Assembly (NCBI RefSeq): GCF_001049495.1
Contig: NZ_CDWI01000011.1
Location: 806,001-870,000, forward strand
DNA length: 64,000 nt
Source of the DNA: Microbacterium sp. 3J1
GTDB taxonomy: Bacteria > Actinomycetota > Actinomycetes > Actinomycetales > Microbacteriaceae
Direction of reading: 5' to 3'
A program made the translations under genes and the position numbers. The notes beneath the pieces are model-generated. The model made no database searches and had not been told where the DNA came from. It was given only the letters and a program-made list of their open reading frames with translations. Below are positions 47,493-49,661 of this stretch, piece after piece; position 1 is the first letter of the stretch, and each line of letters starts with the position of its first letter.

Positions 47493-47498
47493 TAACCT
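47493..47498 (+). promoter_or_regulatory. -10 box of the leuC leader peptide
   Basis: TAACCT lies six bases before the ATG of the leader peptide, so the leader itself would be translated from a leaderless mRNA. Confidence 0.6.
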
Positions 47499-47504
47499 GA
47501 CGTC

Positions 47505-47552
47505 ATGCGGACCGTGCTCCTTCTTAGCGGCCGCGACGAGACCTCGTTCTGA
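47505..47552 (+). CDS. Leucine-rich leader peptide of leuCD (15 aa)
   Basis: ATG at 47505 opens a 15-residue frame, [15 protein letters not shown], ending with TGA at 47550-47552. Three leucine codons stand in a row after a valine (CTC CTT CTT at 47517-47525); CTT is rare in this genome. The second half of the frame (47531-47540) is the 5' arm of a 10-base-pair hairpin. This is the layout of an amino-acid attenuation leader, where a ribosome short of Leu-tRNA stalls at the leucine codons and changes the RNA fold ahead. leuC starts 58 bases after the stop. Confidence 0.75.
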
Positions 47553-47569
47553 GCCCCTCCTCGTCGCGG
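47531..47569 (+). promoter_or_regulatory. Attenuator-type hairpin before leuC
   Basis: CCGCGACGAG (47531-47540) pairs perfectly with CTCGTCGCGG (47560-47569). The 5' arm lies in the leader peptide frame right after the leucine codons, and the stop codon lies in the loop. No T run follows, so it is not a plain terminator; CTCCT at 47557-47561 could also pair with the AGGAG of the leuC ribosome site (47599-47603). Confidence 0.65.
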
Positions 47570-47610
47570 AGTCCATCGTGGGCCGAACCGCCATCCTCAG
47601 GAGAAACGCA

Positions 47611-49062
47611 ATGAACACCCCCGCAGCAGACTCTGCGTCCGCACGCAGCAGGACCCTGGCAGAGAAGGTCTGGGACGACCACCTCGTGGTCAAGGGCGAG
47701 AACGGCGAGCCCGACCTGCTCTACATCGACCTCCACCTGGTGCACGAGGTGACGAGCCCCCAGGCGTTCGACGGTCTGCGGGCCGAGAACCGGCCGCTGC
47801 GTCGCCTCGACCTCACCATCGCGACCGAGGACCACAACACGCCGACGTGGGAGATCGACAAGCCGATCGCCGACCTGACGAGCCGCACCCAGATCGAGAC
47901 CCTCCGCCGCAACGCCGCGGACTTCGGCGTGCGGCTGCACTCGCTCGGCGACGCCGAGCAGGGCATCGTCCACGTCGTCGGACCGCAGCTCGGCCTCACC
48001 ATGCCCGGCATCACGGTCGTGTGCGGCGACTCGCACACCTCGACCCACGGTGCCTTCGGCGCGATGGCGTTCGGCATCGGCACCAGCGAGGTCGAGCACG
48101 TCATGGCCACGCAGACCCTGCCGCTCAAGCCGTTCAAGACGATGGCCATCACCGTCGAGGGCACGCTGCGCGCCGGCGTCACCGCGAAGGACATCATCCT
48201 TGCCGTCATCGCCAAGATCGGCACCGGCGGGGGGCAGGGCTACGTGCTGGAATACCGCGGCAGCGCGATCAGAGCGCTGTCGATGGAAGGCCGCATGACG
48301 ATCTGCAACATGTCGATCGAGGCCGGCGCGCGTGCCGGCATGGTGGCGCCGGACGAGACGACGTTCGCCTATCTCGAGGGGCGTCCTCACGCTCCGAAGG
48401 GCCAGGACTGGGACGACGCGGTCGCCTACTGGCGCACGCTGCCCACCGACGACGGTGCGGTGTTCGACGCCGAGGTGTTCATCGACGCCGACCAGCTGGA
48501 GCCGTTCGTGACCTGGGGGACCAACCCGGGACAGGGCAGCTCGCTCTCGGCATCCGTGCCGGACCCGGCCGAGATCGCGGACCCGAACGAACGCGCGGCC
48601 GCCGAGCGGGCGCTCGAGTACATGGACCTCGCCCCGGGCACCCCGCTCAAGGAGGTGCCGGTCGACGCCGTGTTCATGGGCTCCTGCACGAACAGCCGTA
48701 TCGAGGACCTGCGCGCGTTCGCCTCGATCATCAAAGGCAAGAAGAAGGCGGAGGGCGTGCGGGTCATGGTCGTCCCCGGCTCGGCTCGGGTGCGGCTCGA
48801 GGCTGAGGCCGAGGGCCTCGACCGGGTCATCAAGGATTTCGGGGCGGAGTGGCGCTTCGCCGGATGCTCGATGTGCCTCGGGATGAACCCCGATCAGCTC
48901 GCGCCGGGGGAGCGCTGCGCCTCGACCTCCAACCGCAACTTCGAGGGACGCCAGGGCAAGGGCGGGCGGACGCACCTCGTCTCGCCGCTCGTCGCCGCGG
49001 CGACCGCGATCCGCGGCACGCTCTCGAGCCCGAGCGACCTGAACGAGATGGCGGAGGTCTGA
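47611..49062 (+). CDS. leuC: 3-isopropylmalate dehydratase large subunit
   Basis: The 483-residue aconitase-type protein has the three iron-sulfur ligands Cys359 (MGSCTNSRI), Cys419 and Cys422 (GCSMCLGMN). It also has [17 protein letters not shown] and [16 protein letters not shown], the LeuC signatures. With LeuD it isomerises 2-isopropylmalate to 3-isopropylmalate in leucine synthesis. AGGAGA at 47599-47604 precedes the ATG. leuD starts three bases after its stop. Expression is probably tuned by the leucine leader peptide upstream. Confidence 0.96.
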
Positions 49063-49064
49063 CC

Positions 49065-49661
49065 ATGGAGAAGTTCATCACCCACACGGGCATCGCCGCG
49101 CCCCTCAAGCGCTCCAACGTCGACACGGACCAGATCATCCCCGCGGTGTTCCTCAAGCGCGTCACGAAGACGGGCTTCGAGGACGCGCTGTTCCACGGCT
49201 GGCGGCAGCAGCCCGACTTCGTCCTCAACCAGGAGGCCTTCCAGGGCGCGTCCGTGCTCGTCGCCGGACCGGACTTCGGCACCGGATCGAGCCGCGAGCA
49301 CGCCGTCTGGGCGCTGCGCGACTTCGGCTTCAAGGTCGTCCTCAGCCCGCGCTTCGCCGACATCTTCCGAGGGAACTCGGGCAAGCAGGGACTCCTCGCC
49401 GCGACGATCTCTGAAGAGGACCTCGAGCGGATCTGGGCCGCGATCGACCGGGAACCCGGGGCGCGGATCACGGTGGACCTCGAAGCGCGAACCGCCTCGA
49501 TCGCTGACGTCCAGGCCGACATCGGTATCGACGATTACACTAGATGGCGGCTCCTCGAAGGGCTCGATGACATCGGGCTCACGCTGCGCAATGAAGACAA
49601 GATCGCGCAGTTCGAGGCCCGTCGCGAGTCGTGGCGGCCCCGAACCCTTCCCGTTCAGTGA
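49065..49661 (+). CDS. leuD: 3-isopropylmalate dehydratase small subunit
   Basis: The 198-residue protein starts [27 protein letters not shown], of which NVDTDQIIP and later [14 protein letters not shown] are the LeuD marks (the swivelling aconitase domain). It completes the heterodimer with LeuC. GGAGG in the end of leuC is the ribosome site. murA begins 63 bases after its stop on the same strand and may be partly read through from this operon. Confidence 0.96.

Follow-up and report, generated by a model that had tools for sequence, protein, structure and literature searches.

The actinobacterial LEU element has a second copy upstream of leuC in the Microbacteriaceae

Introduction

What is a 15-codon frame with a run of leucine codons doing upstream of leuC, and how did it come to be there? 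The question arises from a window of 64,000 nt of Microbacterium sp. 3J1 (assembly GCF_001049495.1, contig NZ_CDWI01000011.1, positions 806,001-870,000, forward strand), in which an earlier note had read such a frame as a leaderless leader peptide that forms part of a hairpin. Here, the features of this leader, its conservation in relatives, its relationship to a known element at leuA and its possible mode of action are examined in turn.

The leader and hairpin at leuC

The observation proved real, and its parts are listed in Table 1. The frame with its VLLL motif (codons GTG CTC CTT CTT, 47514-47525), the spacing of six bases from TAACCT and the perfect hairpin whose 5' arm lies inside the second half of the frame were all recovered, with 10 of 10 pairs formed between CCGCGACGAG and CTCGTCGCGG around a 19-nt loop that contains the leader stop codon. 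The two CTT codons are rare ones, as had been claimed: the leucine codons of three window genes comprise 67 CTC, 46 CTG, 5 CTT and 1 TTG, so that CTT accounts for 5 of 119. There is likewise no T run 3' of the window hairpin. The suggested pairing of CTCCT with the AGGAG of leuC agrees with their complementarity and with the minimum free energy (MFE) fold of 47506-47640, in which the CUCCU:AGGAG stem forms alongside the hairpin. The energy of this fold is ordinary for its composition (z -0.71, with 50 of 200 shuffles as good), and the window sequence alone therefore proves little; the anti-Shine-Dalgarno stem of the window copy has only 5 bp and its candidate pseudoknot only 4 bp.

Table 1. 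Features of the leuC leader region and the genes that follow it, in window coordinates
Feature	Position	Strand	Basis and remarks
-10-like box TAACCT (TANNNT)	47493..47498	+	sequence; 6 nt 5' of leader ATG
Leader frame, predicted leaderless	47505..47552	+	sequence; ATG 47505-47507, stop 47550-47552, 15 codons
Putative Leu sensor codons CTC CTT CTT	47517..47525	+	pairing of Leu codons with Shine-Dalgarno site, own versus permuted
CTCCT, anti-Shine-Dalgarno strand of base stem, inside Leu codons	47517..47521	+	complementary to AGGAG 47599-47603
Hairpin 5' arm CCGCGACGAG	47531..47540	+	sequence; alignment of relatives
Hairpin 3' arm CTCGTCGCGG	47560..47569	+	sequence; alignment of relatives
Loop GCCC, candidate pseudoknot 5' strand	47553..47556	+	4 bp with GGGC; helix supported in divergent copies
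GGGC, candidate pseudoknot 3' strand	47580..47583	+	4 bp with GCCC; helix supported in divergent copies
leuC Shine-Dalgarno AGGAG, paired with Leu codons in predicted off state	47599..47603	+	sequence; MFE fold
leuC, 3-isopropylmalate dehydratase large subunit	47611..49062	+	ATG 47611; TIGR00170 735 bits, cut-off 560
Open frame holding leuD, second gene of unit	48849..49661	+	TIGR00171 above cut-off; match from frame residue 73

Both leuC and leuD score above their NCBIfam cut-offs, and the divergent neighbour of leuC resembles O-acetylhomoserine sulfhydrylases, with scores below the cut-offs of those models. No Rfam 15 family matches the leader element, and it is therefore likely to have been missed in annotation. 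A CCT shortly after the 5' arm (window 47542-47544; columns 49-52 of the leader alignment A1) is nearly invariant, and is kept even where the stop codon is shifted, as in the window (GAG ACC TCG); no pairing partner for it was found.

Distribution of the element

A covariance model, R1, was built from Microbacteriaceae leaders, 64 of them at leuC and 30 at leuA. The leuC regions searched represent 90 distinct genomes, mostly high-scoring ones, of the 145 in which LeuC was matched, and for 60 of the 90 only about 500 nt upstream were examined; the leuA set was drawn from 30 out of 143 genomes. The family placement of most genera was checked, and Rhodoluna and Terrimesophilobacter were counted as Microbacteriaceae.

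The earlier note had staked its proposal on conservation of the frame and hairpin in relatives, and this is what was found: R1 detects the element upstream of leuC in 68 of the 90 family regions, spread over 40 of the 54 genera sampled, and the register of the frame is kept in all 94 aligned copies (vide infra). No R1 match was obtained in the other 22 regions. These 22, together with four regions that do have a match, are excluded from alignment A1, which thus has 64 leuC rows. Two of the four, L028 and L032, have the element farther upstream than the search range; the other two, L006 and L021, retain the hairpin but have no -10 box where one would be expected, and in L021 the Leu run is missing as well; both are read as decaying or repurposed copies. 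In the named sample, the element stands before leuC in 23 of 34 Microbacteriaceae and in 0 of 46 other loci; the closest named LeuC, from Microbacterium sp. TPD7012, is 95% identical to that of the window. In Herbiconiux daphne (L187, 742-836) some 665 nt separate the element from the start of the LeuC match, more than in the other named loci.

The complete pattern of box, 6 or 7 nt, start codon, LLL and stop codon is present within 300 nt upstream in 61 of 90 leuC and 29 of 30 leuA family regions. In 200 block-shuffled sets its mean occurrence is 0.0 (leuC) and 0.005 (leuA), with maxima of 0 and 1, and it does not occur on the reverse strand. Because the pattern is conserved so far beyond these controls, chance is rejected as its source.

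At least one R1 match is present in 144 of 150 family genomes, 46 having one, 89 two and nine three. The 28 matches located in the nine three-match genomes comprise nine at leuA, nine at leuC, nine at a second leuA-like gene and one with nothing recognised nearby. Of 248 genomes sampled across the order, 184 give a match. All 18 family genomes are among them, each with two or more, as are 166 of 230 non-family genomes, eight of these with two. When 26 matches in 18 non-family genomes were opened, 21 were found at leuA or leuA-like genes and five upstream of a tiny ORF and leuB, and none of the 26 was at leuC. The second leuA-like gene preceded by LEU elements is 54-58% identical to leuA (L139-L141, L144-L149, L171, L172, L178 and L179), and most of these elements feature a distinct pseudoknot helix, GACCGGC/GCCGGTC. 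Two R1 matches without a pathway gene, L150 (E 0.008) and L180 (E 3.9e-4), were taken as chance.

Start, frame and codon use

The distance from start codon to hairpin is 26, 29, 32 or 35 nt, i.e. it varies in steps of three, in 94 of 94 copies (64 leuC, 30 leuA), and the stop codon falls within the hairpin loop in all 94. In 93 of the 94 (64 of 64 at leuC, 29 of 30 at leuA), a TANNNT box is found 6-7 nt upstream of the start codon. Starts had been assigned by their proximity to a box, and the leuC copies were selected for having one 3-11 nt upstream; the frame played no part in that selection. The spacing at leuC is 6 nt in 50 copies and 7 nt in 14, and no TANNNT was found at any other spacing from 0 to 44 in these 64 copies, chosen as they were for a box at 3-11 nt. 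The box and its 6-nt spacing suggest a transcription start on or beside the leader ATG.

Every aligned leuC copy (64 of 64) has a run of at least two Leu codons, and in 61 it is three or four, the window having LLL. These runs contain 119 CTT, 74 CTC, 18 CTG and 1 TTG codons, so that CTT and CTC make up 193 of 212.

Covariation of the predicted helices

Across the alignment, 99.5% of 930 hairpin cells are paired, and four of the ten pairs show changes on both sides. Cells changed on both sides number 19, versus 2.4 in shuffles, and the permutation z is 7.8 for the 64 leuC copies. Pairing was scored as the contiguous helix formed with a copy's own versus permuted partners, with parallel-orientation controls, and the permutation tests correct only partly for the relatedness of the copies. 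By this score, the Leu run covaries with the Shine-Dalgarno sequence at leuC with z 4.3 (0 of 5000 permutations, 64 copies), and with z 3.0 (11 of 5000) when one copy per genus is taken (38 copies). The parallel-orientation controls give z -0.04 for the 64 and 0.06 for one per genus, and another downstream segment gives z 0.58. The paired compensatory changes that the earlier note had looked to are thus seen in both places, between the hairpin arms and between the Leu codons and the leuC Shine-Dalgarno sequence. At leuA the Leu-run covariation is weaker than at leuC: z is 2.7 (22 of 5000) for all 30 copies, where the parallel control also reaches z 1.9, and 1.6 (290 of 5000) with one per genus.

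Clear covariation of the pseudoknot is confined to a set of 36 divergent copies; in the family set it is weak. In the family, z is 1.7 for all leuC copies and 0.7 with one per genus, 0.9 and 1.1 respectively at leuA, and 2.0 and 1.2 when leuC and leuA are taken together. In the divergent copies, which include some close relatives and one misregistered hairpin (L156), z is 6.8 (0 of 5000) against -1.7 for the parallel control, with helices such as GTCAGCCA/TGGCTGAC, GACCGGC/GCCGGTC and CGGTCGGT/ACCGACCG. The contiguous-helix score superseded a comparison of whole-duplex energies, in which own and swapped partners differed only slightly: -12.03 versus -11.61 (leuC) and -9.85 versus -10.00 (leuA) for the pseudoknot, and -16.51 versus -15.53 and -16.62 versus -15.93 for the base stem.

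A paralogous copy at leuA

When the leader DNA is used as a query against its own genome, one other site is found, with 78% identity over 55 nt, directly upstream of leuA; the R1 matches in this genome are the same two sites, leuC and leuA. The leuA copy features TAGCAT, 6 nt, an ATG, the peptide MPFGGLLLLSCRDES followed by a stop, and the same hairpin as the leuC copy, with GCTTCTTCTT opposite GAGAAGAAGC at the leuA Shine-Dalgarno site. The LEU element was named at leuA, where it has a leader peptide with a Leu run that pairs with the Shine-Dalgarno sequence, a pseudoknot and no terminator (PMC1262725). The leuC leader is a second copy of this actinobacterial element (Seliverstov 2005). It departs from the original description in its place of occurrence, and because the window copy stands at leuC and not at leuA, while its paralogue does sit at leuA, it is classed as a LEU variant.

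The element appears to have been duplicated from leuA to the front of leuCD in the lineage of the Microbacteriaceae. There is no clear sign of gene conversion between the two copies of one genome, judged by mean identities in 21 genomes: own leuC versus own leuA is 0.766, compared with 0.736 between genera, and the window pair is 0.667. Leifsonia xyli was among the genomes of Seliverstov et al., and the text on LEU in that paper does not mention a leuC copy (PMC1262725). No published report of a LEU copy at leuC was found in the open-access literature searched.

Val/Ile/Leu leaders outside the family

The same fold occurs with Val/Ile/Leu codons at five non-family loci, between ilvC-like and leuB genes. 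These LEU-like leaders (L173, L174, L175 and L177 of family f18, and L176 of f2) are predicted to be leaderless; the element is placed at locus position 1501 (match strand), ahead of a tiny ORF and leuB. Their peptides are MTRRVLLIPGRDGVR, MAQRFVILTRRGEFR, MTQRVVILIRRGEFR, MARQLVILSSRGEFR and MRHALILRCRGGA, each followed by a stop. A further locus, L268, overlaps L176, and the end of the upstream gene there resembles that of ilvC. The tiny protein, of about 20-28 residues and MSEEAQKARQALQESMDLREQGHSDD-like, is conserved, with a match in 8 of 119 genomes of the order (L261-L268), and lies near leuB in several of these. A box search found no leader frame of the Val/Ile/Leu type in L263 or L264.

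Absence of the NdgR-type regulator

Outside the family, leuC is commonly preceded by a divergent IclR-type gene, found in 43 of 46 named non-family loci. NdgR and its orthologues adjoin leuCD and regulate it (PMC4340878), and the gene is therefore called NdgR-type here; NCBIfam offers only IclR-type models for the protein, which it matches below cut-off. No divergent NdgR-type gene adjoins leuC in any of 34 named or 30 further family loci, and a query with the Arthrobacter protein (L222) at E 1e-30 found no match in 150 family genomes. As a positive control, the same query matched 222 of 248 genomes in the order sample, all 222 being among the 230 non-family genomes and none among the 18 of the family. 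In 22 of the 90 family leuC regions both the RNA element and the NdgR-type gene are missing (neighbours were checked for part of them), and loss of the protein was therefore not always followed by the RNA. One of the 46 non-family loci, L230, is an unplaced metagenome-assembled genome without an NdgR-type gene; its neighbouring gene shares 55% identity with the counterpart in L214 (Rhodoluna), and the genome may belong near the Microbacteriaceae.

Proposed mechanism and alternatives

We consider it reasonably likely, with a good deal of room for doubt, that a LEU element was duplicated before leuCD in the Microbacteriaceae and acts there by translational attenuation. In such a scheme, transcription would start at or beside the leader ATG, and ribosomes would load without a Shine-Dalgarno site. 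With leucyl-tRNA plentiful, a ribosome would reach the stop codon in the hairpin loop and depart, whereupon the hairpin, with the pseudoknot, would position the freed CUCCUUCUU run beside AGGAG, and the resulting pairing would shut leuC. With leucyl-tRNA scarce, it would stall on the Leu codons, masking the anti-Shine-Dalgarno strand and the 5' arm, and leuC would be translated; the geometry of this masking predicts that leuC is on when leucyl-tRNA runs short. A leaderless start would also spare the switch a competitor, since a Shine-Dalgarno sequence in the leader would offer the pyrimidine-rich Leu run a second partner. Codon sensing is supported because the Leu codons covary with the Shine-Dalgarno sequence that they would free, and because they become Val/Ile/Leu codons between ilvC-like and leuB genes. 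Several observations count against this reading: the 22 of 90 family leuC regions in which the element is missing, the two of 68 R1-positive leuC copies without a box, one of which (L021) has no Leu run either, the short helices and ordinary fold energy of the window copy, the weaker Leu-run covariation at leuA, the small differences in duplex energy, and the S. coelicolor leuA mutants related by Seliverstov et al. (PMC1262725).

A trp-type attenuator was rejected, the longest T run within 14 nt after the hairpin being three or fewer in 64 of 64 aligned leuC copies. The same lack of a T run leaves room for Rho, and a Leu-codon sensor might instead end the untranslated leader/leuC RNA early, in a Rho- or pausing-dependent manner. 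On Northern blots, the M. tuberculosis leuA leader, with 13 codons, three of them Leu, gave short RNAs (85, 65 and 45 nt; PMC3526491), which would fit such an output, but these may also be processing products. A purely transcriptional switch would, moreover, not need the Leu codons to match the leuC Shine-Dalgarno sequence, with which they covary, and we regard this output as rather unlikely.

It is less likely still that an RNA-binding regulator recognises the fold, the leader ORF being incidental or no more than a modulator. Mutations in the S. coelicolor leuA leader had effects inconsistent with classical attenuation, as told by Seliverstov et al., who for this reason, and on phyletic grounds, favoured a binding protein for the leuA elements (PMC1262725). 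The hairpin retained without Leu codons in L021 and the nearly invariant loop CCT, for which no reason was found, would also suit a binding site. However, a regulator of this kind would not account for the retention of start codon, frame and Leu run throughout the 94 aligned copies, nor for the switch to Val/Ile/Leu codons in another gene context. That a chance short frame lies beside an unrelated hairpin would agree with the ordinary fold energy of the window, but is refuted by the conservation, covariation and shuffles and can hardly be credited.

Translational attenuation remains the preferred reading. The element is of a known kind but stands at a new gene and in a new lineage, where RNA has probably replaced a protein in control. 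We would put at about even the chances of a fuller history, in which NdgR was lost in the ancestor of the Microbacteriaceae and the leuA LEU element was copied before leuC, bringing the first two pathway steps under the same leaderless, codon-sensing translational switch. In this history, the synonymous choice of Leu codons would be constrained from two sides, by the sensing tRNA and by pairing with the Shine-Dalgarno sequence of each gene, and the leaderless start would avoid a further such sequence competing for that strand. If this is true, a whole family passed control of leucine synthesis from protein to RNA. It would provide a sequence-level case in which a cis-acting RNA took over an amino-acid regulon from a transcription factor, with lineages that clearly represent the states before and after. 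The covariation of the codons with the Shine-Dalgarno sequence and their change to Val/Ile/Leu offer testable support for codon sensing in LEU elements, the mechanism of which has been in doubt since 2005.

Comparison with known systems

The nearest relative is the LEU element of leuA, with which the window copy shares the Leu-run leader, the Leu-Shine-Dalgarno complementarity, the hairpin and the lack of a terminator (PMC1262725). The window copy also has a candidate pseudoknot, and its helices were compared with those of the published description in the text. That element was described at leuA and at one B. longum transposase gene, whereas the window copy precedes leuC and belongs to a family in which no NdgR-type gene was found, and the covariation between codons and Shine-Dalgarno sequence was tested here. 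NdgR/LtbR acts on the same target gene and pathway as the window element, but is a protein repressor/activator encoded beside leuCD (PMC4340878), and its gene was not found in the 150 family genomes searched.

Leader peptides at leuA have also been reported in C. glutamicum, C. diphtheriae and M. tuberculosis. The S. lividans leader LeuL1 (MRFGLLLLSCRGEGL followed by a stop) is reported to be transcribed leaderless and without a typical terminator (PMC8079986), as in our reading of the window. LeuL1 stands upstream of leuA and has a mapped 5' end, whereas the window leader stands at leuC, with a 5' end predicted from its box. Finally, in mycobacteria the leaderless poly-Cys attenuators (Canestrari et al. 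2020, via PMC9031893) place a leaderless short ORF with tandem codons for the pathway amino acid before a biosynthetic operon, as is predicted for the window leader. They differ from it in amino acid, sequence and fold and in being experimentally supported.
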